DNA from: Solidesulfovibrio carbinoliphilus subsp. oakridgensis | GTDB lineage: Bacteria; Desulfobacterota; Desulfovibrionia; Desulfovibrionales; Desulfovibrionaceae | Assembly (NCBI RefSeq): GCF_000177215.2 | Contig: NZ_CM001368.1 | Coordinates: forward strand, 2,418,001 to 2,482,000 | DNA: 64,000 nucleotides | Direction: 5' to 3' | Shown: one piece after another, positions 48,933 through 64,000 of the stretch | Numbering within the stretch: position 1 is the stretch's first letter | Layout: each line of letters starts with the position of its first letter | Made by a program: the position numbers and the translations under genes | The notes under the pieces: generated by a model | Seen by the model: only the letters and a program-made list of their open reading frames with translations | The model's database searches: none | Told to the model about the DNA's origin: nothing

Positions 48933-50888
48933 ATGCGTTCCCTGACGCTTGCCGCCGCGCTTCTGGCCTGTCTGCTCGGCGCCTGGACCCCGGCCCGGGC
49001 CACGCCCGCCGCGTCGGCCGGGCCCCAGGCCGTGGCCGCAAGCGCCGGCGAGGAGCAGCTGCCGGCCAGCCTGGAAACCGCCCTCTACCGGCTGCCCAAG
49101 GGCGACCCCTCGGGCCAGGTCCTGGCCGTCCTGACCCTGGCCTCGGCCCCGGGCTGGCACGCCTACGCCGTGGGCCCGGCCGAGTCCGGCCAGTCGGCCC
49201 AGGCCACGCTCCATGCCGGCGCCGTCGCTGCCCTGGCCCTCTTTCCGCCGGGCACGCCCCAGCCGGACGCCTTTGAGCCGGAAAAGACCGTGCTCGTCTA
49301 CCAGGGCCTGACCCCGATCTTCGTGCCGGTCACCGAGGCCATGCGCCAGGAGCCGGCCCTGGCCGGACAGGTCAAGGTCTTTTCCTGCTCGGACACCAGC
49401 TGCTGGCCCTCCACCCTGCCGGTCTCCATCCCCCTGGCCGGCCGCGATCCGGCCGAACTGCCCCCGGCCGAGGCCGCCTCGTGGTGGCCGCTTTTCTCGG
49501 CCCTTCGAAACGCCGCCCTGGCCATGCCCCAGGCCACCTGCCCGGAACCGGCCCTGCCGTCCCTGGCCCGGCCCCAGGCCGCGCCGCCCCCGGCAGCCGA
49601 GCCGGCCGAGGCCGCCCCGCCGCCGCAACTGACGCCCCGGTCGTTCACCCCGGCCCTGGAGGTTTCGGGACTCTTCAAGGCGGCGCTCCTCGCCTTTGTG
49701 GCCGGCCTGATCCTCAACTTCATGCCCTGCGTCCTGCCCGTGGTCAGCTTGAAGCTCTCGAGCCTGCTGGCCATCAGCGGCGAGGAGGGCCGGCAGGAGC
49801 GGCGGCGCATCCTGCGCGAGCACAATTTCTTTTTCGCCCTGGGGATTGTGGTCTATTTCCTGTTTCTGAGCTTTCTGCTCGGCGCCTTTGGCCTGGCCTG
49901 GGGCGAGATGTTCCAGTCGGCCGCCCTGGCCATCGTGGTGACGGTGATCCTTTTCGCCCTGTCGCTGAGCCTTTTCGGTGTCTTCCACCTGCCGGTGGTG
50001 GATCTCAAGATCTCTTCCGGCGGCCGGGGGCACACCCGGCGCGGCGCTTTTTTGACAGGCGTCCTGACCACGCTGCTGGCCACGCCCTGCAGCGGCCCGT
50101 TTCTGGGCGGCGTCCTGGCCTGGACCCTGCTCCAGCCCCTGCCGGTCGTCATGACGGTCTTCGCCGCCATCGGCTGCGGCATGGCCTCGCCCTACGCCGT
50201 GCTGGCCATCTGGCCGCGTCTGGTCCGGTTCCTGCCCCGGCCCGGGGCCTGGATGCAGGGGCTCGAGAAGGGCATGGCCTTTCTCCTGGCCGCCACCTGC
50301 CTCTATTTCCTGGCGCTCCTGCCGCCCGGCCGCCTGCTGCCGGCCCTGGCCGCCCTGTGGGCCACGGCCCTCGGGGCCTTTCTCCTCGGCCGGGGGGCCC
50401 ATCTGTCGAGCAGCCCCCTGCGCCGCATGGTCATGACGCTCCTGGCCCTGGCGGTCACCGCCGCGGGCCTGGCCTTTGCCCTGACCTTCACGCCGCCGGC
50501 CGAGGCCGAGTGGGTGGCCTACACCCCCAAGGCCTTTGAGGAGCGGCTGGGCCGCGACAACCTGGTCCTCGACTTCACGGCCGACTGGTGCCCGACCTGC
50601 AAGCTCCTGGAGCGCACGGTCCTGACCTCGGCCCGGGTGGCCCAGTGGGCGTCCAGGCGCAAGGCCGTGTTCATGAAGGTGGACCTGACGCGCCAGACGC
50701 CCGAAGCCATGGCCCTCCTGCGGGCCCTCGGCAGCCAGTCCATCCCGGTGGCCGCCTTTTTCCCGGCCGGCAGGGACGCCACCTCCCCGGTGGTCCTTCG
50801 CGACCTCTACACGGCCGGCCAGTTCGAAGAGGCCCTGGACGAGGCCTTCGGCGGCCCGGCCACGCCCCCAAGCCCGGCCGCGCCGTAG
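48933..50888 (+). CDS. dsbD: Thiol:disulfide interchange protein DsbD
   Basis: 651 aa if started at the ATG at 48933 (MRSLTLAAALLACLLG, a clean signal peptide); an in-frame ATG at 48900 adds 11 residues. No strong ribosome site marks either. N-terminal periplasmic domain with VFSCSDTSCWPSTLP, eight TM helices with the paired cysteines NFMPCVLPVVSL and ATPCSGPFLGGV, and a C-terminal thioredoxin domain with DFTADWCPTCKLLE. It passes electrons from cytoplasmic thioredoxin to periplasmic partners, for example for cytochrome c maturation. Complete with all three Cys pairs. Confidence 0.88.
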   Translation: MRSLTLAAALLACLLGAWTPARATPAASAGPQAVAASAGEEQLPASLETALYRLPKGDPSGQVLAVLTLASAPGWHAYAVGPAESGQSAQATLHAGAVAALALFPPGTPQPDAFEPEKTVLVYQGLTPIFVPVTEAMRQEPALAGQVKVFSCSDTSCWPSTLPVSIPLAGRDPAELPPAEAASWWPLFSALRNAALAMPQATCPEPALPSLARPQAAPPPAAEPAEAAPPPQLTPRSFTPALEVSGLFKAALLAFVAGLILNFMPCVLPVVSLKLSSLLAISGEEGRQERRRILREHNFFFALGIVVYFLFLSFLLGAFGLAWGEMFQSAALAIVVTVILFALSLSLFGVFHLPVVDLKISSGGRGHTRRGAFLTGVLTTLLATPCSGPFLGGVLAWTLLQPLPVVMTVFAAIGCGMASPYAVLAIWPRLVRFLPRPGAWMQGLEKGMAFLLAATCLYFLALLPPGRLLPALAALWATALGAFLLGRGAHLSSSPLRRMVMTLLALAVTAAGLAFALTFTPPAEAEWVAYTPKAFEERLGRDNLVLDFTADWCPTCKLLERTVLTSARVAQWASRRKAVFMKVDLTRQTPEAMALLRALGSQSIPVAAFFPAGRDATSPVVLRDLYTAGQFEEALDEAFGGPATPPSPAAP

Positions 50889-51051
50889 CGTTCCCTCCGC
50901 CTTTTTTGCGCATTCCCGGCCCTCTGCGGGCTCACGCCTCTTCCCACCCTGCGAACCCGCGAGGTCGGCCCGCCCTTGGCGACGCCCCCCGGCTGCTCCA
51001 CGGGCCGGCGGCGGCACTGCCTCTCGCCTCCGGCCCCGTCTTCCGATCCGC

Positions 51052-51080
51052 AAAAAAAAGGAGCGCCCAGCGGACGCTCC
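51052..51080 (-). terminator. Rho-independent terminator of the carboxypeptidase gene
   Basis: Minus strand GGAGCG, nine-nt loop TCCGCTGGG, CGCTCC, then eight T residues (51059-51052). Placed 25 nt after the gene's stop. Confidence 0.85.
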
Positions 51081-51105
51081 CGTAAAATCCGTTGTCCCGC
51101 CGGCG

Positions 51106-52194
51106 CTACTGGGCGGCGGTCGCCTCCGGCTGCGGGACCGGACGGGCCGCGACCACGGCCGGTGTGGTCGCCTTCCTGATCGCCGCCAGCTTGAACCCCT
51201 TGTCCAGGAGCTTGGCCGTCTCGCGCTGGCGCACCCGGGGACTGCGCGAACCGAGGACCACGGCGATGAGCCTGGTATCGCCGCGTTTGGCCGTGGCCAC
51301 GATGTTGTAGCCCGAGGCGCACACGAAGCCGGTCTTCAGCCCGTCGCAGCCCTCGTAACTGGCAAGGAGCGAGTTGGCGTTGTGACGCTGGCGGTTGTTG
51401 TGGGAGAAAAACTGCAGGGAGTGGATGGAGAGCGCCTTGGGGAACTGCTCCAGGTAGGCGCTGGCCAGGCGCAGCATGTCCCGGGCCGTGGTCAGCTGGC
51501 CCTCGGCCGGCAGGCCGTTGGGGTTCATGAACACGGAGTTGCTCATGCCGAGCCGCTTGGCCGTGTCGTTCATGAGGGCCACGAAGGCGTCCACGTTGCC
51601 GCCTTCCAGGTAATCGGCCATGGCCATGCAGGCGTCGTTGGCCGAAGCCACGGCAATGCCCTTGATCATGTCCGTGACCTTGACCGATTCGCCGTTTCGC
51701 AGGCGCATGGTGGAGCCGCCCTGGGTGGCCGCCCGCTCGGACACGTCCACCACGTCCCAGGGGCGCAGCTTGCCCTGGCGGATGGCGTCGAAGATGATGT
51801 AGAGGGTCAGGATCTTGGTCAGGGAGGCCGGCGGGATCTGGAAATCGGGATTCTGCTCGTAGAGGAGTTCGCCCGTGCTGGCGTTCCAGAGCATGGCCGA
51901 CTTGACGGTCAGGGCCGGCACTTCGCAGGAGCCGATGTCGCCTTCCTCGTTCTCGACATCGGCCGGGACCGGGACCACGGCCTTGCGGCCATGGCGGGCC
52001 TTTTTCGCCGGCTTCCCCTCGTGGCGGGCGACCTTGCGGACCGGGGCGGCCTTGCGGCTTTTGGCCTTGGGCCGGTCCTTCTCGGCCTGGGGGGCTTTCT
52101 TGGCCAGGGCCTGGCCGTAATCGGCCATGGGTGCGGCCAGGAGGACGAAGACAGCGAGCAGGGCGACAAGGGCGGCACGGTAAGATTGCTGCAT
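51106..52194 (-). CDS. D-alanyl-D-alanine carboxypeptidase (serine-type, DacA/PBP5-like)
   Basis: 362 aa. The ATG at 52194 gives a signal peptide MQQSYRAALVALLAVFVLLA, then a long basic Lys/Arg/Ala linker (about 30-75). Catalytic S-x-x-K in PPASLTKILT, S-x-N in VASANDACMA and KTG in GLKTGFVCASGYN. It trims the terminal D-Ala from muropeptides. The C-terminal beta domain typical of PBP5 is absent or very short (the protein ends ATTPAVVAARPVPQPEATAAQ), as in DacD/PBP7-like forms. Confidence 0.9.
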   Translation of the reverse strand: MQQSYRAALVALLAVFVLLAAPMADYGQALAKKAPQAEKDRPKAKSRKAAPVRKVARHEGKPAKKARHGRKAVVPVPADVENEEGDIGSCEVPALTVKSAMLWNASTGELLYEQNPDFQIPPASLTKILTLYIIFDAIRQGKLRPWDVVDVSERAATQGGSTMRLRNGESVKVTDMIKGIAVASANDACMAMADYLEGGNVDAFVALMNDTAKRLGMSNSVFMNPNGLPAEGQLTTARDMLRLASAYLEQFPKALSIHSLQFFSHNNRQRHNANSLLASYEGCDGLKTGFVCASGYNIVATAKRGDTRLIAVVLGSRSPRVRQRETAKLLDKGFKLAAIRKATTPAVVAARPVPQPEATAAQ

Positions 52195-52445
52195 GGGGCG
52201 GGGTTCCTCTTGCTCGACGAAAAGACGTCCGGCTCGCCCGGCCCGGCCCTGGGGCGAGGTCCGGCCCGTCGGCCGGGCAAGGCCGGCGAGGCCGCAGGCG
52301 ACGACGTGAGCGCTTTTACCCGCGCCGGTGGGGAATGTCAAAAGCCCGGGCCTGGACGTTGCGCCCGGCCCGCGCTTGCCGTAGGATCACACATTGGCGG
52401 GGGCGGGGTCCTGGCCGCAATCCGCCCAACCCTGGAGCCTTTACA
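52195..52445. promoter_or_regulatory. Divergent region between dacA-like gene and small lipoprotein
   Basis: 251 nt. Likely carries promoters for both strands, but no hexamer pair stands out. No other gene seen. Confidence 0.3.
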
Positions 52446-52607
52446 ATGTTTCGTGCCTGTTGCACCCTGTTCCTCCTGGCCGTCTTGGCCCTCTCCGGCT
52501 GCGCCCACACGGCGCCGCTGGCCTCCAACCTGGAAGTGCGCACCACGGGCGACGCCCAGGTCTACGGCGTCTATTCGTCGCATCCCTACGGTTCCGATCG
52601 CCGCTGA
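52446..52607 (+). CDS. Small lipoprotein
   Basis: 53 aa. MFRACCTLFLLAVLALSGC is a lipoprotein signal with lipobox LSGC (Cys 19). The mature part is 35 residues (AHTAPLASNLEVRTTGDAQV, then YGVYSSHPYGSDRR). Similar tiny lipoproteins are common in Desulfovibrio, but I do not know the role. Located 10 nt before the GAF-kinase gene, probably co-transcribed. Confidence 0.72.
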   Translation: MFRACCTLFLLAVLALSGCAHTAPLASNLEVRTTGDAQVYGVYSSHPYGSDRR

Positions 52608-52617
52608 CACCCGCATC

Positions 52618-54126
52618 ATGCCCGAAAATTTCGACTTCCCCGACATTCAGGAACGCCTGCTCAAGCTCGAGGAGGCGTTTGCCGACCACAACAGCTACCA
52701 GTTCAAAAAGATCCTGGCCGAGCTGCGCCGGGCGGCCAAGATGCGGGCCAACGCCGCGGCCCTGGCCCGGGCCGAGATCCTCGACTGCCGCAAGGATTGC
52801 GAGCGGACCCGCAAGCAGGCCGTGGATTTGCAAGCCAAGCTCAAGACCGTGGTCGACCGGTTCGAAGGCAGCTTCACGGCCTTCGAGAAGTTCCGCAAAG
52901 CCATCCGGGTGGTGGAAATGATGCGTGCCCACGAGGATCTGCCCGCCATCCTCGAGCGCATCAAGGACCTGTTCGGCCTGCGGGCGGTCAGCCTGCTCTT
53001 GGACGCCGGCGAGTTCGCGGCCTTCGATCCGCCGGGAGCGCGCCTGGCCGAGGCCAAGGCCATGCGCCAGGCCCTGTCCGCCCTCATGCCCGGGGCCAGG
53101 CTGCCGGGGCCGTTCATGTGCCCCATAAGCGCGGTGCCGGACCCGGAGTTTTTTTTCGGCCCCGGCTTTTGCGCCGAACGCAAGGTGCTGCTCCTTGGCT
53201 CGTGCTTCATTTCGCCGCTCAGAGACAAGTTCGGCCCCCAGCGCCTGATCGGCATCCTGAGCTTTTTCGATTCCAACCCCGACCGCTACACGAGCGAAAA
53301 GGGTTCGGAATTCGCTTCGCATTTCGCGGACATCCTCGGCTACACCATCGTTGACATCACGGACCGCAAAAAGGCCGAGCGGCTGCGCGAGGACGTGGAA
53401 CGCATGACCCGCCACGACCTCAAGTCGCCGCTGACCGCGGTCTTGACCCTGCCCCAGCTCTTAAAGCGCGACGGCAACCTGACCGAGCGGCAGACCGACA
53501 TGCTAAGCCTCATGCAGCACGCCGGCTACCGCATGCTCAACATGATCAACCAGTCCCTGGACCTTTTCCGCATGGAGCGCGGGGTCTACGAGCTGACCCC
53601 GGCCAAGGTGGACCTGCTGCCGATCCTCGACAACATCGCGGGCGAACTGCACGGGGTCATCGAAACCAGCGGCCTGACCCTCGATGTCGTGGTGCGCGGC
53701 CGGCCCCGCCGGCCCGAGGACGCCTTTGCCGTGCGGGGCGAGGAAATGCTCCTGTACACCATGCTCTCAAACCTCATCAAAAACGCCCTGGAAGCCGCGC
53801 CCCCCGGCAGCCGGGTGGCGGTCACCCTGGCCGAGGGCCGGTCCCTCGACGTGGCCGTGGCCAACCCCGGCGCGGTCCCGGCCCAGATCCGGCCCCACTT
53901 TTTCGACAAGTACGTGACCGCCGGCAAAAAGGACGGCACCGGCCTTGGCACCTACGGCGCAAGGCTCATCGCCGAAACCCACGGCGCCAAGATCAGCATG
54001 GACACCTCCGAAACCGCCGGCACCACGGTCACGGTCTCCTTTCCCAAGCCCCGGGTGGCGGAAAAGGCCGCCGCCGGCAACGCCTCCCCCTTCGCGTCCG
54101 CGCCGCCCCGGTCCGCGACCCGCTGA
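52618..54126 (+). CDS. Sensor histidine kinase with DUF484/GAF-like input
   Basis: 502 aa from the ATG at 52618. N-terminal coiled coil (ERLLKLEEAFADHNSYQFKK and on to 75), a GAF/DUF484-like domain (about 80-250), then HisKA with the phospho-His in RMTRHDLKSPLTAVLTL and HATPase with NLIKNALEAAPPGS and DGTGLGTYGARLIAE. Soluble: no TM. The separate C-terminal tail is Ala/Pro rich. No response regulator is adjacent. Confidence 0.88.
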   Translation: MPENFDFPDIQERLLKLEEAFADHNSYQFKKILAELRRAAKMRANAAALARAEILDCRKDCERTRKQAVDLQAKLKTVVDRFEGSFTAFEKFRKAIRVVEMMRAHEDLPAILERIKDLFGLRAVSLLLDAGEFAAFDPPGARLAEAKAMRQALSALMPGARLPGPFMCPISAVPDPEFFFGPGFCAERKVLLLGSCFISPLRDKFGPQRLIGILSFFDSNPDRYTSEKGSEFASHFADILGYTIVDITDRKKAERLREDVERMTRHDLKSPLTAVLTLPQLLKRDGNLTERQTDMLSLMQHAGYRMLNMINQSLDLFRMERGVYELTPAKVDLLPILDNIAGELHGVIETSGLTLDVVVRGRPRRPEDAFAVRGEEMLLYTMLSNLIKNALEAAPPGSRVAVTLAEGRSLDVAVANPGAVPAQIRPHFFDKYVTAGKKDGTGLGTYGARLIAETHGAKISMDTSETAGTTVTVSFPKPRVAEKAAAGNASPFASAPPRSATR

Positions 54127-54252
54127 CCGTTCGGCCGGGCCGCCGCCTGTCCCGGCCCGGGGGCGGTTTCTTCCGGATCCGCCTCGCGGCCCCGATCCTG
54201 GGAGGCGCGCCGGCGCGGGTGCAAACCGGGGAACGGGAAAAAGGACGCGGAT

Positions 54253-54723
54253 TCAGGCCTTGGCCGAGAACATGGCCCCGGCCGGGCGCGCGCTTTCGGA
54301 AAACCGGGTCCGGGCGTAGGCCCGGGAGGCCCGGCCGGGCGAGGCCTCGGCCGTGTCCTGGCCGGCGGGCCGGGCGGCCGTGGCGGACCCGCCTCCGGCC
54401 GGCGGCCCGCCGGCCAGGCTGACGGCCACGGCCGCCTGCCGGGCCAGGGCCTGCCCCTGGCTGGAAAAGGCCTGGCCCGAGGCGGCTTTGCCGTCAGACC
54501 CTCCATCGGCTCCCCCCTGGGCTCCGGCGCCGGCGCCGGGGTCGCCCCCGGGCACCGGTCCGCTGCCAAGGGCCTTGGCCGGCTCGACCGGGACCACGGC
54601 CAGGGCCGCGCCGTCGGCCGGGGCCGCAGTGGCGGCCGGCGGGGGCGGCGCGGGCACGACCGGAGCCTGGGCCGCGTAGAGCCCGAGCATCCCGTAACCG
54701 CCGCTTGTGACCGCATCGACCAT
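54253..54723 (-). CDS. Ala/Pro/Gly-rich hypothetical protein
   Basis: 156 aa. ATG at 54723 with a strong GGAGGCGGCC ribosome site. Begins MVDAVTSGGYGMLGLYAAQA, then a low-complexity Ala/Pro/Gly run, then QAFSSQGQALARQAAVAVSL and a C-terminal GRASRAYARTRFSESARPAG. Not recognised; Desulfovibrio genomes carry similar Pro/Ala-rich short proteins. The good start signal and intact frame favour a real gene. Confidence 0.6.
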   Translation of the reverse strand: MVDAVTSGGYGMLGLYAAQAPVVPAPPPPAATAAPADGAALAVVPVEPAKALGSGPVPGGDPGAGAGAQGGADGGSDGKAASGQAFSSQGQALARQAAVAVSLAGGPPAGGGSATAARPAGQDTAEASPGRASRAYARTRFSESARPAGAMFSAKA

Positions 54724-54822
54724 GGCCGCCTCCGGACGGATCACACCGTATCCTTCCCTCTCATCGACCCGGCCGAGATGGTTCTTTAGTCCCGGCCCGA
54801 AAAAGCCTATGCTGCCCCTTCC

Positions 54823-55887
54823 ATGCCCGCACCACACCCGGCCGTGTACGCCGTCACCGAAAAAGGGGCCCGCCTGGGCCGCCGTCTGGCCGCCCGGCTC
54901 GGCGCGGACCTGTTTGTGCCCGAACGCCTGGCCGACCTGTCCACCCGGGCCGACGCCGCCGGCCTCGGCCCGGCCACGGCCTTTGCCTCCCTGGGCGGCC
55001 TGGTGGCCGAAACCTTCGCCGCCCGGCCGGCCCATGTCTTTGTCTGCGCCTGCGGCATCGCCGTCCGGGCCATTGCCCCGCATATCCGCGACAAGGCGGC
55101 CGATCCGGCCGTGGTCTGCGTGGACGACGCGGGACAATTTGCCGTAAGCCTGCTGGCCGGCCACCTGGGCGGGGCCAATGCCCTGGCCCGGGAGGTGGCG
55201 GCCGCCATCGGGGCCGTGCCGGTGGTGACCACGGCCACCGACGCCGCCGGGGCCCCGGCCATCGAGCTTCTGGCCAGGGATCTCCGGCTTCCCATGGATA
55301 ACCCGGCGGCCACGCGCCGTGTCAATGGGGCCTTGGCCGCAAACGAACCCGTGGCAGTCTTCGATCCGCTGGGAATGTTCACCCCGGCCGATCCGGACGC
55401 GGCCCGTTTTTTCGAGTGGGTGGCCTCGCCCGCCCCGGCCCGGCCGGGCCAGCCCCTGGTGGTGGTGGACTGGCGGCTTGGGCCGCTTGCCCCGGACCGG
55501 CTCTACCTGCGGCCCCGGGTGCTGGTGGCCGGGGTCGGCTGCCGGCGGGGAACCCCGGCCGAGGACATCCTGTCGCTTCTGGCCCACGTCTGCCGGGAGA
55601 AAGGGCTGGCCGTGGCCTCGGTCGGCCTTCTCGCCTCCATCGCAGCCAAGCGCGACGAGCCGGGCATCCGCGAGGCCGCCGCCACCCTGGGGGCGGACGT
55701 CCGATTTTTCACGGCCGACGAGCTTTCCGGCGTCGCCGCCCCGAACCCTTCGGAGCGGGTGGCCAAACACATGGGAGTGGGGAGCGTATGCGAAGCAGCG
55801 GCGATGCTGGCCTCCGGGAACGGGAAACTGCTGATCCAGAAGGCCAGGACCGGCTTTTCCACCGTGGCCGTGGCCCTGGCCGGCTGA
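54823..55887 (+). CDS. cbiG: Cobalt-precorrin-5A hydrolase CbiG
   Basis: 354 aa. CbiG N-domain (HVFVCACGIAVRAIAPHIRD, DDAGQFAVSLLAGHLGGANA), middle domain with TTATDAAGAPAIELLA, and C-domain (LVAGVGCRRGTPAEDILSLL, ERVAKHMGVGSVCEAAAMLA). It opens the ring lactone to release acetaldehyde in anaerobic cobalamin synthesis, as expected for a strict anaerobe. Its last 100 nt overlap cbiH in another frame. The rest of the pathway is outside the window. Confidence 0.93.
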   Translation: MPAPHPAVYAVTEKGARLGRRLAARLGADLFVPERLADLSTRADAAGLGPATAFASLGGLVAETFAARPAHVFVCACGIAVRAIAPHIRDKAADPAVVCVDDAGQFAVSLLAGHLGGANALAREVAAAIGAVPVVTTATDAAGAPAIELLARDLRLPMDNPAATRRVNGALAANEPVAVFDPLGMFTPADPDAARFFEWVASPAPARPGQPLVVVDWRLGPLAPDRLYLRPRVLVAGVGCRRGTPAEDILSLLAHVCREKGLAVASVGLLASIAAKRDEPGIREAAATLGADVRFFTADELSGVAAPNPSERVAKHMGVGSVCEAAAMLASGNGKLLIQKARTGFSTVAVALAG

Positions 55888-56633
55888 CGGTCGTCGGGCT
55901 CGGCCCGGGCGACGCCGCCCTGCTCGCGCCCATGGCCGCCGAAGCCCTGGCCGGGGCGGACATGGTCGCCGGGTACACCGCCTACATCGACCTGGTGCCG
56001 CCGGGCCTCTTGGCCGGCAAGGAGGTGGCGGCCACGGGCATGACCGGCGAGGTGGCCCGGTGCCGGCTGGCCCTGGAGGCGGCCGCCGCCGGACGGCGGG
56101 TGGCCCTGGTGTCGAGCGGCGACGCCGGCGTCTACGGCATGGCCGGACTGGCCCTCGAGATGCTGGAAGCCATGGGCCTTGGCGGGCAGGTGGCCTTTTC
56201 CGTGGTGCCGGGCATCCCGGCCGTATGCGCGGCGGCGGCGCTCCTTGGCGCACCGCTGACCCACGACTTCGCCGTGGTCAGCCTGTCGGACCTCCTGACC
56301 CCCATGGAGGCCATCCGCCGCCGCCTGGACGCGGCCCTGGGCGCGGATTTCGTCCTGGCCCTTTACAACCCCCGCTCCCGGCGCCGGTCCGGCCACCTGG
56401 CCCTGGCCCTGGCCCTGGCCGCCCGGCACCGGCCCCCGGAAACGCCGGTCGGCATGGTCAAAAAGGCCTTCCGCCCCGGCCAGGAAATCCGCGTCACCCC
56501 GCTTGCCGCGGCCGATCCCGACTGGGCCGACATGCTGACCCTGGTCGTCATCGGCAACACCGCCACCCGGCTGGCCGCCGGCGCCATGCTGACCCCGCGC
56601 GGCTATGCCGGGAAATACGATCTGGCGCCCTGA
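55788..56633 (+). CDS. cbiH: Precorrin-3B / cobalt-factor III C17-methyltransferase CbiH
   Basis: 281 aa. TP-methylase fold: LTVVGLGPGDAALLAP (SAM), DMVAGYTAYIDLVPP, VALVSSGDAGVYGMAG, SVVPGIPAVCAAAALLGAPL, ALYNPRSRRRSGHL and MLTLVVIGNTATRLAAG. The ATG at 55788, behind GGGGAGCGT, adds about 33 residues before the conserved core and makes a 100-nt overlap with cbiG. No good later start exists, so the overlap is likely real. Methylates C17 with ring contraction. Confidence 0.9.
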   Translation: MRSSGDAGLRERETADPEGQDRLFHRGRGPGRLTVVGLGPGDAALLAPMAAEALAGADMVAGYTAYIDLVPPGLLAGKEVAATGMTGEVARCRLALEAAAAGRRVALVSSGDAGVYGMAGLALEMLEAMGLGGQVAFSVVPGIPAVCAAAALLGAPLTHDFAVVSLSDLLTPMEAIRRRLDAALGADFVLALYNPRSRRRSGHLALALALAARHRPPETPVGMVKKAFRPGQEIRVTPLAAADPDWADMLTLVVIGNTATRLAAGAMLTPRGYAGKYDLAP

Positions 56634-56684
56634 TTCCCCACTGCTCCGGGCGGGATTTCTTCCGTCTTTTCCGGCCCCTGCACC

Positions 56685-56718
56685 TTGACAGGCTGTCCAG
56701 GCAGGTCGTAGACAGCCT
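56685..56718 (+). promoter_or_regulatory. Promoter of cytochrome c3 with inverted-repeat operator
   Basis: TTGACA (56685-56690), 18-nt spacer, TAGACA (56709-56714). An inverted repeat AGGCTGTC (56690-56697) / GACAGCCT (56711-56718) spans the spacer and the -10, a layout suited to a repressor. About 35 nt of leader and a strong GGAGG precede the ATG. Confidence 0.5.
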
Positions 56719-56753
56719 AAGTGAAAAATTATTCCTGGAAGGAGGTGTGAGGG

Positions 56754-57140
56754 ATGAGAAAGGCGTTGTTTACGATTTTTGCGTGCGCGGCGTTGGTGGG
56801 CTTCGTGGGCCTGCCCATGCTGCAGGCGGTCGAGGCTCCGGCCGACATGACGATCAAGGTGCCGGCCGGCATGACCGCCACCCAGGCCGAAGTGGCGTTC
56901 TCCCACAAGGGACATGCCAAGATCGACTGCAAGGTGTGCCACCACAAGGGTGAAGCCACCCAGAAGTGCGCCTCGGCCGGCTGCCATGACAGCACCGACC
57001 CCAAGGACAAGACCAGCGAACATTCGTTCTACAAGGCCTTCCACGACATGAAGAGCGAAAAGAGCTGCATCGGCTGCCACAAGAAGGAAGCCAAGGGCCC
57101 GACCAAGTGCCCCGAGTGCCATCCGAAGAAGACCTCTTAA
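56754..57140 (+). CDS. Tetraheme cytochrome c3
   Basis: 128 aa, precursor with signal peptide MRKALFTIFACAALVGFVGL and cleavage near LQAVEA. Heme-binding motifs CKVCH, CASAGCH (CX4CH), CIGCH and CPECH, with axial-ligand histidines in AFSHKGHAK, CHHKGE and EHSFYKAFHD. Soluble periplasmic electron carrier between hydrogenase/formate dehydrogenase and membrane complexes; hallmark of Desulfovibrio. Alone in its transcript, behind GGAGGTGTGAGGG, and ended by a strong terminator. Confidence 0.96.
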   Translation: MRKALFTIFACAALVGFVGLPMLQAVEAPADMTIKVPAGMTATQAEVAFSHKGHAKIDCKVCHHKGEATQKCASAGCHDSTDPKDKTSEHSFYKAFHDMKSEKSCIGCHKKEAKGPTKCPECHPKKTS

Positions 57141-57152
57141 ATGCAATCCCGC

Positions 57153-57187
57153 GAGGCCGGGGCCTATCCCCCGGCCTCGCCCCCTTT
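57153..57187 (+). terminator. Rho-independent terminator of cytochrome c3
   Basis: GAGGCCGGGG, six-nt loop CCTATC, CCCCGGCCTC (57169-57178), then CCCCCTTTTT. Located 12 nt past the stop. Confidence 0.85.
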
Positions 57188-57217
57188 TTCTGACGCCAAC
57201 TCCGGCCGAGGTATCCC

Positions 57218-59533
57218 ATGGCGACCGACAAACCCCTTGCCGACTCCGACGACGACATCATCGACCTGACCGACCTCGTGGAGGAGGGGGGCGCCGGCGA
57301 TGCCCCGTCCGGCGACGACGGCCCCGTGGACATGAGTTTCGAGCAGGAACTCGAAGACCTGTTCGGCGACGCCGATCCCGCCGCCCCGGCCGCGCCCAAG
57401 GCCGCCGGGCCGGCCGCCGGAACCGCCGACGAGGACCTGATCGACCTGGCCGGCTTCGACGTCGACGAAACGCCGGAAACAGCGCCCGCCCCGGCCGGCC
57501 CCGGCGACAACGACGGCGACGACGACGTCATGGACCTGACCGGCTTCGGCCTCGACGAGGTCCCGGAACCCGCGCCTGCCCAGGCTGCGGCCACCGCCGC
57601 AGCCAACGACGGCGACGACGACGTCATGGACCTGGCCGGCCTGGGCTTCGACGAGATCCCGGCCGCGCCAAAGGCCCCGGCCGGCGCTGCCGATGCCGCC
57701 GCCGATACCGACATCGACGACGCCATGGCCGACCTGTTCGGCGAAGCCGAAGCCCCGGCCCGACCGGCCGCCACGGCCGCCGCCACGACGCCAGACGACG
57801 AGGCGGCTGGCCTTTCAAGCCTCGGTTTCGAGTTGCCCGAAGATGCGATTTCCCTGGCCGAGGCCGGCCAGACGCCCGAAGACGCGGCCGAGGCCGCCGG
57901 CGAACTGCCCGACTTCGGCGGGCTTGGGGCCGAAACCGCCCCGGACGACGAGGCCATGGACCTCACCGGCATGGATCTGTCGGAACTGGAGCCGGCGCCG
58001 GCCGTCGCCGAACCCCCGGCGCCGGCGGACGATGCGGCCGGAGCCGATCTCCTTGGGGACGTGCCCTACGCACCGGACGCCACCGACGACGGGGCCATGG
58101 ACATCGCCGACATTTCCCCCCTGCCCCCGCTCGAGGAACCGGCCGCGCCGGTCCCGGACGCCAACACCCCCGGGTCCACCGCCGCCGGCGAGGCGGCCAT
58201 GGCCGCCCTGACCGTGGCGGCCGCCGCCGGCGTGACCGCCGGCGTCGCGGCCATGGCCCAGTCCGCCGCGCCGCACGGACCCGCCGCCGCGACCACCGCC
58301 ATCGACCTCGGGGCCCTGGACAACCTCATCGACGCGGCCAGGGGCCCCCTGCCCGAACCCGAGCCCGAAGCCGCGCCCGAACCGGCCAGGCTCAACGCCC
58401 TGGCCGAACGCATCGCCTCCCTGGAATCGACCACGGCCACCCTGTACGACAAGCTCGAGACCCTGCCCCCGGCCACGGACGGCGAGGCCCTGGCCGACGC
58501 CTTGTCGGCCAGGCTCGAGGACGCCCTGTCCGAACGCCTGGAAGCGGTCCTGGCCGGCCAGCCGCCCATGCCGGACGTGGCTGGCCTTCGCACCGACATC
58601 CTGGCCGAAATCGAACGCCGGGTGCCGGACCGCGATTCCCTCCTGGCCGACGTGCAGGCCGCCCTGGCCCCGCAGTTCGAGGCCCTGCGCGGCGAACTGC
58701 CCCAAGCCGGGGAGCTGGCCGGCCAGGCCGAGACCGCCGCCGCCCTGGACGGCCTTCGGGAGTCGCTCGCGCGCCTGGAAGCCCTGACCCAGGGCCGGCA
58801 GACCAAATTCGAGGATTTCGCCGCAGCCATGGAGGCCCGGCTGGCCGAACTGCGCCGCGAACTGCCGGGGCCGGACGCTTACGCCTCGACGCAAAACGTC
58901 AGCGAGGCCCTGGAAACGCTGCGCGAAAACCTCTCCCGCGACATCGCGGCCAACCTGGACGAGCGGCTGGCCGAACTGCGCCGGGAACTGCGCGAAACGC
59001 TCGCCGGCGACATCGCCGCCGGCCTCGACGAACGGGTGGCCGGACTGCGAAGCGAGCTGGGGGACAGCCTGGACGCGCGCGTGACCAAACTCGGCGGCGA
59101 ATTGCAGCAGGGCCTGGCCGACGACATCGCCGCCGGCCTGGACGAGCGGCTGGGCGGCGTGATCGATGCCGGCCGGCAGGCGGCCGCCACCGAGGTCCGG
59201 TCCCTGGGCGAGACCCTGGCCAGCCGGCTCGAGGCCCTGGAAAACGACCGGCTCGATCCCGAAGCCGTGGCCGAGCGCGTCCGCCAGGCCCTTCTGCCCT
59301 CCCTGCCCGACGCCGAAGCCGTCCAGGAAGCCGGGAAAGCCGCCGCCCGGGCCGAGGACGCCGTCGCGGCCGCCCACTCCCGCCTGGAAGACAAGGCCGG
59401 GTACGAAGACCTCGACGCGGCCCTGGACACCATGCGGACCGAGATGGCGGCCGAAATCGAACGGGCCGTGCCCCGGGCCGCCGCCGCCGTCATCCGCGAG
59501 GAAATCGCCGCGTTACTGAAGGATTTCGAGTAA
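57218..59533 (+). CDS. Long acidic-repeat and coiled-coil protein, unknown function
   Basis: 771 aa. N-terminal 290 residues are Ala/Asp/Glu/Pro rich with a repeated acidic-hydrophobic motif: DDDIIDLTDLVEEG (11-24), DEDLIDLAGFDVDE (about 71), DDDVMDLTGFGLDE (about 101), DDDVMDLAGLGFDE (about 133), DDEAMDLTGMDLSE (about 243), DDGAMDIADIS (about 290). A short Ala-rich region follows, then from about 385 to the end regular amphipathic repeats built on DIAA.LDERLAELRREL. No enzyme motif or signal peptide. It could be a cytoplasmic scaffold that tethers partners through the motif. Confidence 0.78.
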   Translation: MATDKPLADSDDDIIDLTDLVEEGGAGDAPSGDDGPVDMSFEQELEDLFGDADPAAPAAPKAAGPAAGTADEDLIDLAGFDVDETPETAPAPAGPGDNDGDDDVMDLTGFGLDEVPEPAPAQAAATAAANDGDDDVMDLAGLGFDEIPAAPKAPAGAADAAADTDIDDAMADLFGEAEAPARPAATAAATTPDDEAAGLSSLGFELPEDAISLAEAGQTPEDAAEAAGELPDFGGLGAETAPDDEAMDLTGMDLSELEPAPAVAEPPAPADDAAGADLLGDVPYAPDATDDGAMDIADISPLPPLEEPAAPVPDANTPGSTAAGEAAMAALTVAAAAGVTAGVAAMAQSAAPHGPAAATTAIDLGALDNLIDAARGPLPEPEPEAAPEPARLNALAERIASLESTTATLYDKLETLPPATDGEALADALSARLEDALSERLEAVLAGQPPMPDVAGLRTDILAEIERRVPDRDSLLADVQAALAPQFEALRGELPQAGELAGQAETAAALDGLRESLARLEALTQGRQTKFEDFAAAMEARLAELRRELPGPDAYASTQNVSEALETLRENLSRDIAANLDERLAELRRELRETLAGDIAAGLDERVAGLRSELGDSLDARVTKLGGELQQGLADDIAAGLDERLGGVIDAGRQAAATEVRSLGETLASRLEALENDRLDPEAVAERVRQALLPSLPDAEAVQEAGKAAARAEDAVAAAHSRLEDKAGYEDLDAALDTMRTEMAAEIERAVPRAAAAVIREEIAALLKDFE

Positions 59534-59542
59534 GAGGAAAGA

Positions 59543-59592
59543 ATGCCTCCGGCGGCCGGGAGGGGGTAACCCCCTCCCGGACCCTCCCTTCC
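59543..59592. repeat. ATGCCTCCGGCGG palindromic element, copy C
   Basis: ATGCCTCCGGCGGCCGGG, hairpin CCGGGAGGGGGT-AA-CCCCCTCCCGG (59557-59580) and ACCCTCCCTTCC. Ten nt after the acidic-repeat gene, so probably its terminator. Confidence 0.75.
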
Positions 59593-59595
59593 TGT

Positions 59596-59638
59596 GGGCG
59601 GTTGGCGTTCCCGGTCTGACCGGGAACGCCAACCGCCC
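59596..59638. repeat. 21-bp perfect inverted repeat
   Basis: Left arm GGGCGGTTGGCGTTCCCGGTC, single T, then its exact reverse complement. No T-run follows. Sits between copies C and D. A protein-binding site, a bidirectional terminator or a relic of a mobile element are all possible. Confidence 0.85.
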
Positions 59639-59686
59639 ATCACCTTTTTATCTCGACAAACACCCGCCCGCGACGCGAAGCCCGCC

Positions 59687-59755
59687 AAAAGTTTTTGGGA
59701 AGGGGTCCGGGGGAACCCTTTTTTCAAAAAGGGTTCCCCCGGCCGCCGGAGGCAT
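59687..59755. repeat. ATGCCTCCGGCGG palindromic element, copy D, reversed
   Basis: On the minus strand: ATGCCTCCGGCGGCCGGGGG, a perfect 17-bp hairpin with a TC/GA loop (59707-59742), then GGACCCCTTCCCAAAAACTTTT. It lies 10 nt from the end of the convergent hybrid kinase gene and probably ends that transcript. Confidence 0.75.
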
Positions 59756-59764
59756 CTCCCCGTC

Positions 59765-62281
59765 TCAGTCCGGAATAATGATGACGTGCACCCCCGGGAA
59801 GGCGCACAGGCGGCCGAGATCGAGGTCGTGGCCGAGGGTTGCCGGCACGAAGACCGTGCCCTGAAAGCCCGCTTCCACGGTCCGCCACAGGTCGGCCTCC
59901 TCGCTGAGGGACGTGGCCTCGCCCGGGCAGACGAAAAACCGCCGGCTGACCTTGCGGCCGCCGTCGCGGGAGTAGATGAGGCAGGGACGGGCGCCCGCCG
60001 CGTCGGCGTCGTGGCCTTCGAGGAGTCCCCGCACCGTGGCCAGGAGCGCCTCCTGGTCCACGGGCTTGACCACGGCCGCATCGGCCCCGCTCTCCGCCCG
60101 TTCCCGGTTCGAGACCACGGACACCACCACGATGGGGATGTCCCGGGTGGCCTCCCCGGCCCGCAGCCGCCGGATGGCCTCCTTGCCGTCCATGCCCGGC
60201 ATGCGCAGGTCCATGGTGATGCACTCCGGTCCCCAGCTTTCGGCCACGGCCAGGGCCTCGGCCCCGTTGCGGGCCAGGGCCACGGCATAGCCGTCATCGA
60301 GAAAGAGCGTCTCCAGGTAGCGCCGGACGGACAGGTCGTCGTCGACCACCAGGATGCGGCGCTTGCCCGCTTCGTCCTCAGGGGAGGCGGCGGGGATGGC
60401 TGCCGCCGGCAGCGGACAGGCCGGCAGCGGCCGGTCGCCCAGCGGCATGGCCGGCAGGGTGAACCGGAAGGCGCTGCCCGCCCCGCCTTCGCTTTCGGCC
60501 CAGATCCGGCCGCCGTGGCGTTCGACGATCTGGCGGCAGATCGGCAGGCCAAGGCCGGTGCCCTTGGGCTTTTCGGTCAGGGTGTCGCCGGCCTGCTTGA
60601 ATTTCTCGAAGATGCGCTCCAGGTCGCCGGCGGCGATGCCGGGGCCGGTGTCGCGCACCGTCACGAGGATCTCCGGCCCGTCCAGGGCCGCTTCCACGTC
60701 CACGCGGCCGGTGGCGGTGAATTTGACCGCATTGCCGATCAGGTTCAAAAAGACCTGGACCAGCCGGTCCCGGTCGCCGAGCACCAGCGGCAGGGTCGGC
60801 GGCACCTGGTTGGCAAGGACCAGGCCCTTTCGGGCCGCCAGCGGCGTGGCGGCCTTGACGGCGTGGTCCGCCACCTCGGCCAGGGACAGGGCGGCCATGT
60901 TCCATTCGCACCGGCCGGACTCCATCTTGGCGATGTCGAGGACATCGTCGACCAGCTCCGTCAGGCGCTCGCCCTCGGCCACGATGATGTCGAGGTTTTC
61001 GCGGATCTGCTGGGCCCCGCGCCAGGTCCTCGGGTCGGCCTCGGCCAGGGCCGGGGCGACCAGGTCCGCGAACTTGCGCCGGATGATCTTGGCGAACCCG
61101 AGGACCGAGGTGAGCGGCGTGCGCAGCTCGTGGGAGACCGTGGAAATGAACTCGGTCTTCATCCGGTCCACTTCCTTTTCCACGGTGATGTCGCGCACGA
61201 GGATGATGGTGCCTTCCCGGTCCTCCCCGGCCAGCCGCACCCGGGTGGCCACGGCCTTGCCCGTGCCGCCGCCGGCCAGCCGGACCTCGGCCGCCTGGAC
61301 GTGGCCCTCCTCGCCCACGGGACCGCAACGGCCGGAAGCGGCGGCCGAGGCGGCCAGGGCAGCCATGGCCGGCGGGAAGGCCCGGGAGGCGGCCCGGCCG
61401 GCCACCTCGGCCTCGGTCAGGCCGAACATGGCCAGCAGGGCCGGATTGAAAAGCGAGGCCCGGCCCCGGGCGTCGAGCACGAGCAGGCCGTCGGCCAGGT
61501 TGTCGATGATGGCCCGGGTATGGGCCAGGGAATCCTTGAGTTCGCGGGTGGTGTCGGCCACGGCCCGCGTGAGGTCCGAGACGAGAAGCGCCAGCTGGCC
61601 GGCCATGGAGCCCATGGCCCGGGCCAGGACCCCCACCTCGTCGTTGCCCGTGGCCGGAAGCCTGGCCGTGAAGTCGTGGTCCCTGATCTTGACGGCGTAG
61701 CCGGCCAGGGCCACCAGCGGCCGGGTGACGCTGCCGACCAGGGCGTAAAAGACCAGCAAGGCCACGAACATCATGGCCAGCATGAGCCCTTCCTGCTGCA
61801 TGACCGCGCCGCGCATGACCCGCCAGATGCCGGCCTTGTCCATGCCGACGCGGACCTGCCCGGCCTCGCCGGCCAGGATCGGGGCCGACACCTGGAGGTA
61901 GTCGCCAAGGCCGTCCAAACGGACGGCTTCGACGGCCATCCCCTCCCCGCGCCGGGCTTCCTGGCCGGACAGGGCGGCCGGGATGGCCGGCACGAAGGTG
62001 TGGGCCACCACCCGGCCCCGGCGGTCGGCCACCAGCACGTAGCCCACGCCGTCGATGTGCAAAAATTCGTCGATCAGGGCCTGGACCGAGGCGTCGTCGC
62101 CGGCCACCAGGGCGTCGGGGCTGGCGGCCGCGATGGCCATGGCGATGGCCCGGCCCTTGGTCACGTATTCGCCGGTCAGGTGGCGGTGGAGCAGCCAGGC
62201 CGAAAGGAGGGCCGTGCCGTTGGCGGCCACGCCGAAAACGAGGATGATGGCCACCAGGGTCTTGCGGAAGATTTTCGACAC
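59765..62281 (-). CDS. Hybrid sensor histidine kinase / response regulator
   Basis: 838 aa with a GTG start (VSKIFRKTLVAIILVFG). TM1 about 10-31, a periplasmic sensor domain (about 32-165), TM2 near LAMMFVALLVFYALVGSVTR, HAMP, a PAS domain (about 265-375), HisKA with the phospho-His in STVSHELRTPLTSVLG, HATPase (NLIGNAVKFTATG, DTGPGIA, GTGLGLPICRQI), a receiver with Asp in CITMDLRMPGMDGKE, and a C-terminal domain of about 75 residues after the receiver. Its GTG is 4 nt past the binding-protein stop, so they form an operon. Confidence 0.92.
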   Translation of the reverse strand: MSKIFRKTLVAIILVFGVAANGTALLSAWLLHRHLTGEYVTKGRAIAMAIAAASPDALVAGDDASVQALIDEFLHIDGVGYVLVADRRGRVVAHTFVPAIPAALSGQEARRGEGMAVEAVRLDGLGDYLQVSAPILAGEAGQVRVGMDKAGIWRVMRGAVMQQEGLMLAMMFVALLVFYALVGSVTRPLVALAGYAVKIRDHDFTARLPATGNDEVGVLARAMGSMAGQLALLVSDLTRAVADTTRELKDSLAHTRAIIDNLADGLLVLDARGRASLFNPALLAMFGLTEAEVAGRAASRAFPPAMAALAASAAASGRCGPVGEEGHVQAAEVRLAGGGTGKAVATRVRLAGEDREGTIILVRDITVEKEVDRMKTEFISTVSHELRTPLTSVLGFAKIIRRKFADLVAPALAEADPRTWRGAQQIRENLDIIVAEGERLTELVDDVLDIAKMESGRCEWNMAALSLAEVADHAVKAATPLAARKGLVLANQVPPTLPLVLGDRDRLVQVFLNLIGNAVKFTATGRVDVEAALDGPEILVTVRDTGPGIAAGDLERIFEKFKQAGDTLTEKPKGTGLGLPICRQIVERHGGRIWAESEGGAGSAFRFTLPAMPLGDRPLPACPLPAAAIPAASPEDEAGKRRILVVDDDLSVRRYLETLFLDDGYAVALARNGAEALAVAESWGPECITMDLRMPGMDGKEAIRRLRAGEATRDIPIVVVSVVSNRERAESGADAAVVKPVDQEALLATVRGLLEGHDADAAGARPCLIYSRDGGRKVSRRFFVCPGEATSLSEEADLWRTVEAGFQGTVFVPATLGHDLDLGRLCAFPGVHVIIIPD

Positions 62282-62285
62282 GGCG

Positions 62286-63536
62286 TCAGTCCCCGGCCGC
62301 CGGCACGGCCGGGAGCGGCACGGGCCGCCCGTCCGCCACCGTGGTCAGCCAGACCGTTTCCAGCCCCTGGTGGGCGGGTCCGGCCGGGAAGACCGGGGCG
62401 CCGATGCCAAGGTCGACCCGGCCGACGGCCGCGGCCGCCGCGTCGAGGCCGGCCCGGTCCAGGGGATCGGGCATGGCTTTGACGATCTCGATTACAAGCC
62501 GGGCGTTCAGGTAGCCCTCGAAGCCGGCGGCGCTGCCTTCGGGCAGGCCCGGTTCCCAGCCCCCGGGCGGGGGGTGGCGGTCGGCCAGTTCGGCCAGGGC
62601 CTGCCGGTAGTCGCGGCCGGCCGGCAGGCTCCCGTCCCGCCAGCAGGGCGTCACCTGGGACAGGATCAGGTTGCCGTCGAGGGCCCGGCCAAGGCGCCTC
62701 CCCTCGTCCGCCAGGGCGCGCAGCAGGATCTCGCCGCCGGCAAAGGAGACCAGGCCCACCGGCACATCGAGCCCGGCCTGCCGCATGTCCCGGATGAGGG
62801 CGGCGCAGGCCGGCGTGGCCCCGATCAGGAGCACGGCCTCGGGCCGGCTGGCGGCCAGCAGCCGCACCTGGGGCGTCATGTCCTCGGCCAGGCCGGCCAG
62901 CCGGGCGAAGGTGGCCTCGCCGCAAAAGGCCAGTCCCCGCCGGTCCAGGGCCCGGCCGGCCCCGTCCCAGCCGCTGCGGCCAAAGGCGTCGGCCTGGTGG
63001 CAGATGGCGACGCGGGTCAGTCCCCGGGCCACGAAGGCGGCGACCAGCGCCTCGATCTCCTGGCGGTAGGAGGCCCGCAGGTTGTAGACGTAGGGGACGT
63101 AGGGCGGCACCCGCGAGGCCTCAAGTCCCGTGACCGGGAAAAAAAGCCTCGCCCCCTGGTCGGCGTAGGCCCGCAGGACCGGCAGGACCCGGCTGACGGT
63201 CGGGGTGCCGAGAGCCGAGAAAAGGGCCAGGACCCGGTTTTGGCCGAGGAAGCGGACCGCGTTTTCGATGGCCGGCGTGGGTTCGTATCCGTCGTCCGCC
63301 GCCAGGAGTTCCAGGGGATGGCCCGACACGCCGCCGTCGCGGTTCTGACGGTCGATGGCGGCCATGGCCCCCCGGTAGAGTTCCACGGCCATGTCCCGGG
63401 TGGGACCGGTGAAACCGGCCGACAGGCCAAGCCGGATCGGCCGGGCCTCTGCGGCGGCCAAGACCCGGGACACGGCCAGCAACAGCCATGCCGTGGCCAG
63501 CGCGGCCCGGAGAAGCGCGCGTAACGTGCCTGCCAT
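62286..63536 (-). CDS. Periplasmic binding protein, Leu/Ile/Val-type (Peripla_BP_6)
   Basis: 416 aa. Signal peptide MAGTLRALLRAALATAWLLL with cleavage after VLAAAEA. Type I fold: IRLGLSAGFTGPTRDMAVEL, GGVSGHPLELLAADDGYEPT and KAMPDPLDRAGLDAAAAAVG in the C-lobe. No ABC permease or ATPase is adjacent; instead the next gene is the hybrid kinase with a periplasmic domain. It most likely acts as a ligand receptor for that kinase. Start at ATG 63536 with GGA upstream. Confidence 0.88.
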   Translation of the reverse strand: MAGTLRALLRAALATAWLLLAVSRVLAAAEARPIRLGLSAGFTGPTRDMAVELYRGAMAAIDRQNRDGGVSGHPLELLAADDGYEPTPAIENAVRFLGQNRVLALFSALGTPTVSRVLPVLRAYADQGARLFFPVTGLEASRVPPYVPYVYNLRASYRQEIEALVAAFVARGLTRVAICHQADAFGRSGWDGAGRALDRRGLAFCGEATFARLAGLAEDMTPQVRLLAASRPEAVLLIGATPACAALIRDMRQAGLDVPVGLVSFAGGEILLRALADEGRRLGRALDGNLILSQVTPCWRDGSLPAGRDYRQALAELADRHPPPGGWEPGLPEGSAAGFEGYLNARLVIEIVKAMPDPLDRAGLDAAAAAVGRVDLGIGAPVFPAGPAHQGLETVWLTTVADGRPVPLPAVPAAGD

Positions 63537-63685
63537 GGATCACGGTCCTCCCGAGCCGCTTCGGCCCAGGCTTTTTTTCGGTTTTCCAGTTCTAGGCCGT
63601 TTTGGAAAATGCGTCAAACCGCAGGCCGGCCTTGCGCCGGCCGCAGAAAATACGGCATCCCGGGCATTGTGGTTTGGACAAACCG

Positions 63686-63703
63686 GTGTCACACAATCGT
63701 CAC
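63686..63703 (+). promoter_or_regulatory. PHO-box-like direct repeat
   Basis: GTGTCAC-ACAA-TCGTCAC, two 7-mers with a 4-nt spacer. It matches the enterobacterial PhoB site (CTGTCAT-AWAW-CTGTCAC) at about 13 of 18 positions. It is 65 nt before the regulator's ATG and could mediate autoregulation. Confidence 0.45.
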
Positions 63704-63768
63704 AGGCCATTCACCGATGCGTCAAGGCGCCGTGTTCTTTCGAGCGACGAAACCTCCGAGGTGCGCGC

Positions 63769-64000
63769 ATGTCCAAGGATTCCATCCTGATAGTCGAAGA
63801 TGACGAAGACATTGTCGAATTGTTGGCTTTTAACCTGCAAAGCGCCGGTTTTGCCACGGAAACGGCCAAAGACGGTTACGAGGCCCTGACCAAGGCCCGC
63901 CGCACCCCGCCGGCCGGCATCATCCTCGACCTCATGCTGCCGGGGCTCGACGGCTTCGAGGTCTGCAAGGAGCTCAAGCGCGACCCCAAAACCGCCGGCG
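63769..64000 (+). CDS. PhoB-like response regulator, 3' end off the window
   Basis: At least 77 residues, starting MSKDSILIVEDDEDIVELLA. Receiver domain: acidic EDDED, phospho-Asp in GIILDLMLPGLDGFEVCKEL. This sequence style is that of OmpR/PhoB regulators; the DNA-binding domain would lie beyond the edge. A PHO-box-like site upstream supports PhoB. Divergent from the binding-protein gene (232 nt apart). Confidence 0.75.
   Translation, partial: MSKDSILIVEDDEDIVELLAFNLQSAGFATETAKDGYEALTKARRTPPAGIILDLMLPGLDGFEVCKELKRDPKTAG

Follow-up and report, generated by a model that had tools for sequence, protein, structure and literature searches.

The window analysed here, a stretch of 64,000 nucleotides from the genome of Solidesulfovibrio carbinoliphilus subsp. 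oakridgensis, carries a gene whose 771-residue product is, with a probability of about one half, a cytoplasmic self-assembling scaffold (or hub) of PopZ-like build, with an acidic arm that would bind clients. This reading is proposed because the protein has an acidic arm, predicted to be disordered and headed by a conserved peptide, a C-terminal half predicted to be helical, and a conserved tail of approximately 32 residues. The family to which it belongs is near-universal in, and restricted to, the order Desulfovibrionales among the genomes sampled, and appears to be undescribed.

The gene and its conserved features

The scaffold-like protein is encoded by a real open reading frame with an ATG start at 57218-59533 (+ strand, as are all features below unless stated), which has alignable orthologues in the genus and is the single match to the 771 residues in its own 4.22-Mb genome. 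No paralogue of its tail was detected in this genome, the next best match being partial (E 0.78). With the 771-residue protein as query, no Pfam or NCBIfam model reached its cut-off and PHROGs returned nothing at E<=0.01; four orthologues searched against Pfam reached no curated cut-off either. No sequence relative was found in the PDB below E 0.1, and Rfam at gathering scores showed no RNA feature within 50000-64000.

Near the N-terminus is a peptide, DDDIIDLTDLVEEG (aa 11-24; 57248-57289), which aligns throughout the order, serves also as motif copy 1, and has a pattern that occurs nowhere else in the genome. Block 2, VDMSFEQELEDLFGD (aa 37-51; 57326-57370), was recognised from the alignment and has a short helix predicted by the model at residues 41-50. 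Identified from a profile, DNA repeats and shuffles are copy 2 of the arm motif, DEDLIDLAGFDVDE (aa 71-84; 57428-57469), copy 3, DDDVMDLTGFGLDE (aa 101-114; 57518-57559), copy 4, DDDVMDLAGLGFDE (aa 133-146; 57614-57655), and copy 5, DDEAMDLTGMDLSE (aa 243-256; 57944-57985), and from the DNA repeats and shuffles copy 6, DDGAMDIAD (aa 290-298; 58085-58111). The DNA repeats (family D1) also reveal a seventh copy, the degenerate DDAMADLF (aa 167-174; 57716-57739). The arm is closed by a genus-conserved segment with a short predicted helix, IDLGALDNLIDAA (aa 362-374; 58301-58339). It is followed by a predicted helical region (aa 388-738; 58379-59431), the length of which differs among orthologues, and by the C-terminal tail (aa 739-770; 59432-59527), whose core VPRAAAAVIREEIAALL is conserved order-wide in the alignment and HMM searches. 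Neither this tail nor block 2 was part of the description given by the sequence-only reading.

Spread of the family and conservation of its ends

A whole-protein search of 59 genomes gave matches in 16, which were its own, 12 of the 13 other congeneric genomes and three others; the congeneric orthologues can be aligned, with those of G007 and G012 present only as contig-end pieces. A profile of 50 columns of the tail matched 187 of the 199 Desulfovibrionales genomes (E<=0.001), once in each save two genomes with two matches. Two tail matches are present in G072 (contigs C229 and C142; L093), an assembly which is 6% contaminated and so possibly represents two organisms. In six of the 12 genomes without a match the tail can be seen with poorer E-values (G019, G075, G123, G155, G175 and G179, with the N-terminus outside the view in G123, G155 and G175), the gene of G012 is interrupted by a contig end, and no copy was detected in the remaining five of the 199 (G032, G094, G176, G194 and G197). 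With the weaker matches and G012 included, 194 of the 199 genomes have a family member. In a sample of the phylum 10 of 297 genomes matched, all in the window's own family and its own genome among them. The protein itself was inspected for part of the 187 genomes (11, 19 and four members).

The ends of the protein are conserved and the middle is not, with arm and coil lengths that vary freely. Order-wide, the N-terminus carries DDxIIDLTDLVEEG and the C-terminus VPxAAAxVIREEI; orthologues in other genera and families have [DE][DE]IIDLT[DE]hhEEG or a variant of it, the tail VPxAAAxVIREEIxAL and usually an SFEQELEDLF-like block. When 19 members were picked by their tail match, 12 had [ILV][ILV][DE]LT near the N-terminus and seven had a variant; variants of the peptide include EVLDLNDIAEE and TVDVADVLND.

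The minimal form, from a 1.6-Mb genome (G135; L156, 1306-1614), has 103 residues, in which the N-terminal peptide is joined to the tail by a short linker and a short stretch of helical appearance, with no motif array. It adjoins what is by eye a hemL-like frame, and the approximately 1.3 kb upstream of it showed no frame with two or more CxxCH-type sites. This form shows most clearly what is indispensable, and the motif array is not part of it. Another small member, a frame of 218 codons, was found in a 1.4-Mb genome. At the other extreme is a giant orthologue (L131, from G028) with a frame of 1344 codons and with cbiG and cobJ upstream; no cytochrome c3-like frame was found in the 1.5 kb before it.

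The motif array in Solidesulfovibrio

Six spaced copies of an acidic-hydrophobic motif had been reported for the arm, and these were recovered in the strict form D-[DE]-x-h-h-D-[LI]-[TA]-[GD] at residues 11, 71, 101, 133, 243 and 290, where 0.001 would be expected from 20,000 shuffles of either the whole arm or 40-residue blocks. The looser form of the sequence-only reading, D...D[LI][TA][GD], has five copies compared with 0.07-0.08 expected in shuffles. The copies at 71, 101, 133 and 243 have in common the longer form DDDxhDLxGhGhDE. As the DNA of copies 3 and 4 is 93% identical across 40 nt, copy 4 is probably a recent duplication; elsewhere the copies share the motif core even though their DNA identity has fallen to 63-78%.

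With a profile trained on four of the window copies (threshold 9), 36 hits were obtained in 10 other full-length congeneric orthologues compared with 0.1 expected; all 10 carry the motif, in two to six copies which vary in number and position, and they include several close pairs and so are not independent. Outside the genus the same profile gave six hits in five of 38 proteins, with 0.8 expected, and 33 had no copy; thresholds of 7 and 11 changed the genus hits to 37 and 30 and those elsewhere to 9 and 4. Because the array is rare in other genera, it cannot be what is central to the function.

Within the genus the copy at 11 and block 2 each have a mean pairwise identity of 0.96, the copy at 71 has 0.59 and that at 101 has 0.67, whereas the linkers range from 0.17 to 0.41; column identity for the copies at 133, 243 and 290 is 0.32, 0.40 and 0.25. 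The proposal that the motif is kept while the linkers vary therefore holds for the copies at 11, 71 and 101 but not for those at 133, 243 and 290, which fall within the linker range, and at these low column identities the profile still locates copies at shifted places. As a class the motif persists in the orthologues (the 36 hits above), and the reverse pattern, with copies lost and linkers kept, was not seen. The copies are also not one equivalent set, since the first is the order-wide peptide, which is different from the others and far better conserved, and those at 133, 243 and 290 are linker-like.

Essentially only this protein carries the motif, as shown by the search of the genome that the sequence-only reading had proposed: [DE]-h-h-D-L-[TA]-G matched 10 times, three of them in the scaffold-like gene, six in frames which by eye are apparently antisense, and one in a normal-looking open reading frame. 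The idea that all six copies derive from the N-terminal peptide was dropped. When the genus was left out of its training set, a profile of this peptide had, at a threshold of 8, no hit in the window arm and one in the genus (0.6 expected), and, at a threshold of 6, one in the window (0.12 expected) and six in the genus (2.0 expected), and in view of this weak excess the arm motif is treated as related but distinct in Solidesulfovibrio.

Arm repeats across the family

Internal repetition was significant when compared with local shuffles (reached by no more than 2 of 100) for 26 of 48 arms, and was found in 25 of 29 arms from the Desulfovibrionaceae versus 1 of 19 from other families, a split counted by hand from the genome lists; one further arm was too short for the test. 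Of 18 other members from the Desulfovibrionaceae, 14 proved to have their own significant internal repeats, and the repeats differ by genus, that of Solidesulfovibrio being the DDDxhDLxGhGhDE form. The motif array is a later elaboration on a protein with conserved ends.

In two members, L130 (G020) and L127 (G132), the repeats are largely copies of the N-terminal peptide, with 9 and 6 hits against 1.3 and 0.4 expected for a profile that was trained partly on their own N-termini. The arms of both have runs of repeats spaced 11-15 residues apart (DDILDLTDVVE..., EDVLDLDDVVE...). Another elaboration is seen in the arm of L070 (UBA6814), which has tandem repeats of the type DDDLLAGLDDLAGDEPAPAAKPAAK.

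Predicted structure and composition

An AlphaFold prediction made with 21 sequences had low overall confidence (mean pLDDT 58, pTM 0.30). It agrees with the arm being disordered as first suggested, with pLDDT <50 predicted over most of residues 1-361, including the stretches in which the profiled copies from 71 onward fall; the exception is the short helix at 41-50 within block 2, after which the next helix is predicted at 364-374. Broken helices are predicted over residues 388-770, of which the tail is the best-predicted part (pLDDT about 88). The earlier description of about 385 residues of amphipathic repeats was right as to extent but not as to regularity, as the hydrophobic periodicity ranges from 3.5 to about 3.8 (3.5 in residues 400-550, 3.75 in 550-660), which indicates a broken, mixed-register helical region and not a single heptad coil.

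The arm has a net charge of -80 over 320 residues and a proline content of 12%, and the whole protein has no Cys and 2 His. No signal peptide was seen by eye within the first 35 residues. A candidate transmembrane segment at approximately 324-347 was rejected; this stretch is alanine-rich, with a 19-residue hydropathy of 1.8, but it is variable in the genus, and the four members inspected from outside the genus did not show it.

Genomic neighbourhood

Directly upstream is a gene for a tetraheme class III cytochrome c (cytochrome c3; 56754-57140), identified by family search. Between this gene and the scaffold-like gene the hairpin scan found a terminator-like hairpin of 12 pairs followed by CCCCTTTTT (57151-57180), and directly after the scaffold-like gene is another, of 20 pairs (59595-59639). 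As these flank the coding sequence, its expression is probably either independent of cytochrome c3 or due to read-through. Two conserved neighbours lie further upstream, cbiG (cobalt-precorrin 5A hydrolase; 54823-55887), identified by family search with NCBIfam matches below cut-off, and cobJ/cbiH (precorrin-3B C17-methyltransferase; 55890-56633, start provisional), assigned by family search. On the other side, at 59765-63536 on the - strand, a hybrid histidine kinase (sCache, HAMP, PAS and receiver domains) lies beside a periplasmic binding protein (PF13458), and the two are possibly a receptor pair.

In 47 of 54 loci the family gene is preceded, at a distance of 11-522 nt, by a cytochrome c3-like frame that has 3-4 CxxCH-type sites, the 54 being a set in which one contig is present twice (L043 and L061) and L073 covers only about 1.06 kb upstream. 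The loci without it are four Desulfohalobiaceae stretches, L073 (Desulfoplanes), L135 (G037) and L131 (G028). From the sequence comparison the linkage with cytochrome c3 is old, and the existence of loci without the cytochrome suggests that the linkage is not the function. Recurrent neighbours are gpsA, ahbB, hemL, cbiG, cobJ and menG (one example of each was checked); of the 63 stretches searched, which include a few contigs twice, 35 contain hemL and 25 contain menG.

A proposed self-assembling hub and the alternatives to it

In the proposed mechanism the C-terminal tail and helical half would drive oligomerisation, and the N-terminal peptide IIDLTDLVEEG would bind one client protein that is present order-wide. 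The arms of the Desulfovibrionaceae would have repeatedly gained acidic-hydrophobic motifs that raise the valency for the same or a similar client, of which DDDxhDLxGhGhDE may be the Solidesulfovibrio version, and the strongly negative linkers would hold the arms apart and tune assembly, as in PopZ. As the gene is near-universal, almost always single and retained in shrunken form in a 1.6-Mb genome, a housekeeping role might be expected, for example as an organiser of the cell pole, the nucleoid or the site of division; this is the least certain step, and we regard it as doubtful. The conserved neighbourhood counts against such a role for the hub, since it points to tetrapyrroles and respiration and not to the cell cycle.

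That neighbourhood could instead mean that the protein is a scaffold dedicated to the tetrapyrrole, cytochrome c3 or menaquinone enzymes encoded alongside it, given how often the cytochrome frame lies directly upstream and hemL and menG occur in the stretches searched, with ahbB and cbiG-cobJ near in many. Cytochrome c3 is, however, periplasmic, and the scaffold-like protein has by eye no export signal, nor does its composition offer much for heme binding. The cytochrome frame is also missing from seven of the 54 loci and from the roughly 1.3 kb upstream of the 103-residue form, neither hemL nor menG turned up in the window or in those Solidesulfovibrio stretches that were searched, and in the window the cytochrome gene is set apart by the hairpin described above, so that we consider this reading quite unlikely. 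Very unlikely, in our judgement, is a cytoskeletal or shape-determining coiled-coil filament on which the arm would be a passive bristle; conservation is lower in the coil than at the ends, the helical periodicity of the coil is irregular, and the reduction of the coil to a few dozen residues (by eye) in the 103-residue form would be hard for a filament-former to tolerate, even though the long predicted helical half, the variable coil length and a widespread, almost always single gene would all fit.

A further alternative concerns the arm only and is compatible with a scaffold: the repeats may be neutral, produced by slippage of a GC-rich acidic low-complexity region, with only the ends mattering. 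Arms of this kind can repeat by slippage without function, which also counts against the hub reading. The near identity of copies 3 and 4, the variation in copy number (2-6) and position, the copies at 133, 243 and 290 that are by column no better conserved than linkers, the 33 of 38 other-genus proteins without a copy and the minimal form without an array would all be expected from neutral repeats. The copies at 71 and 101 nevertheless resist change relative to the linkers, the class is present in 10 of 10 orthologues, the core is preserved although the copy DNA has diverged to 63-78% identity, and most of the other Desulfovibrionaceae members (14 of 18) have significant repeats of their own; neutrality is therefore judged improbable.

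Literature and significance of the family

The likely Desulfovibrio vulgaris counterpart of the gene is DVU3172, for which no paper was found in the open-access literature, nor was any found that joins two or more of five neighbouring locus tags. Open-access papers on PopZ with Desulfovibrio included, in the portions of their text available, none evidently about the scaffold-like gene. As no open-access paper evidently on the gene was found, the family appears to be undescribed.

Among the division-site factors discussed in one source, only homologues of DivIVA, ParB, ZapA and FtsA are reported for D. vulgaris (PMC4672049). An order-restricted gene that is near-universal in the genomes sampled and lacks a family model is a promising candidate for a core function that is missing. 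The members also span a natural range, from 103 to about 1300 residues and from zero to nine additional copies of the motif, which is suited to examining how a bacterial scaffold is tuned by motif number.

Comparison with PopZ and other known systems

Weak amphipathic-helix matches to apolipoprotein A1/A4/E (PF01442) were present in two of the four orthologues scanned; these and other coiled-coil Pfam matches are far below the curated cut-offs and are probably compositional. The closer comparison is with PopZ, which has an N-terminal client-binding region, an acidic disordered region that tunes it and C-terminal oligomerisation helices, and which is reported from alphaproteobacteria only (PMC9512792). 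Common to PopZ and the scaffold-like protein are a short conserved N-terminal element, an acidic disordered linker (predicted in the latter) and a helical C-terminus, although the proline content of 12% compares with 23-29% given for PopZ in the same paper (PMC9512792).

When the tail was aligned with the PopZ C-terminus in hhalign, the score was 21.0 (probability 34.9%) and the alignment was gapless over 33 columns with the prolines and the final E-[IV] in register; the PopZ alignment comprised four sequences, of which two are nearly identical. Controls scored at best 17.3 (200 column shuffles), 12.6 (reversed) and 13.9 (24 coil windows from the family). A HMMER PopZ profile had its best match within the tail in 38 of 49 proteins, compared with 47 of the 508 shuffled proteins that had a match, at low scores near noise (best 7.7 bits, with a best shuffled score of 5.9).

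Membership of the PopZ family itself was considered and rejected. Its Pfam model, PF10691 (DUF2497), was found in 0 of 120 genomes of the order at E<=0.001, with a positive Caulobacter control; it did not match the 771-residue protein at E<=1 or four full orthologues at E<=10 (for one of these, among the best 25 of 29 families), and it was absent among the best 25 of 29 families for 26 tails. Caulobacter PopZ carries DEVLELTD, and the N-terminal peptide profile matches this protein with a score that was reached by none of 1000 shuffles, whereas the match to a Sphingomonas PopZ homologue was not clear (52 of 1000 shuffles reached its score). The PopZ-type N-terminal helix (MEEILxSIxxII and the like), visible by eye in three of the four PopZ sequences, is by eye absent from the aligned N-termini of the family. 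The scaffold-like protein is also far longer than PopZ, its peptide sits near the very start, and the gene neighbours differ, with tolC in both annotated PopZ loci compared and valine--tRNA ligase in one.

By analogy, the scaffold-like protein at best works like PopZ, and it is not filed as PopZ. A bolder and rather unlikely extension of the hub reading is that a PopZ-type hub is peculiar to the Desulfovibrionales, as a condensate scaffold that defines the order and is related distantly to PopZ or convergent with it, in which the N-terminal peptide would recruit a core cell-cycle or pole client and the valency of the arm would evolve genus by genus.
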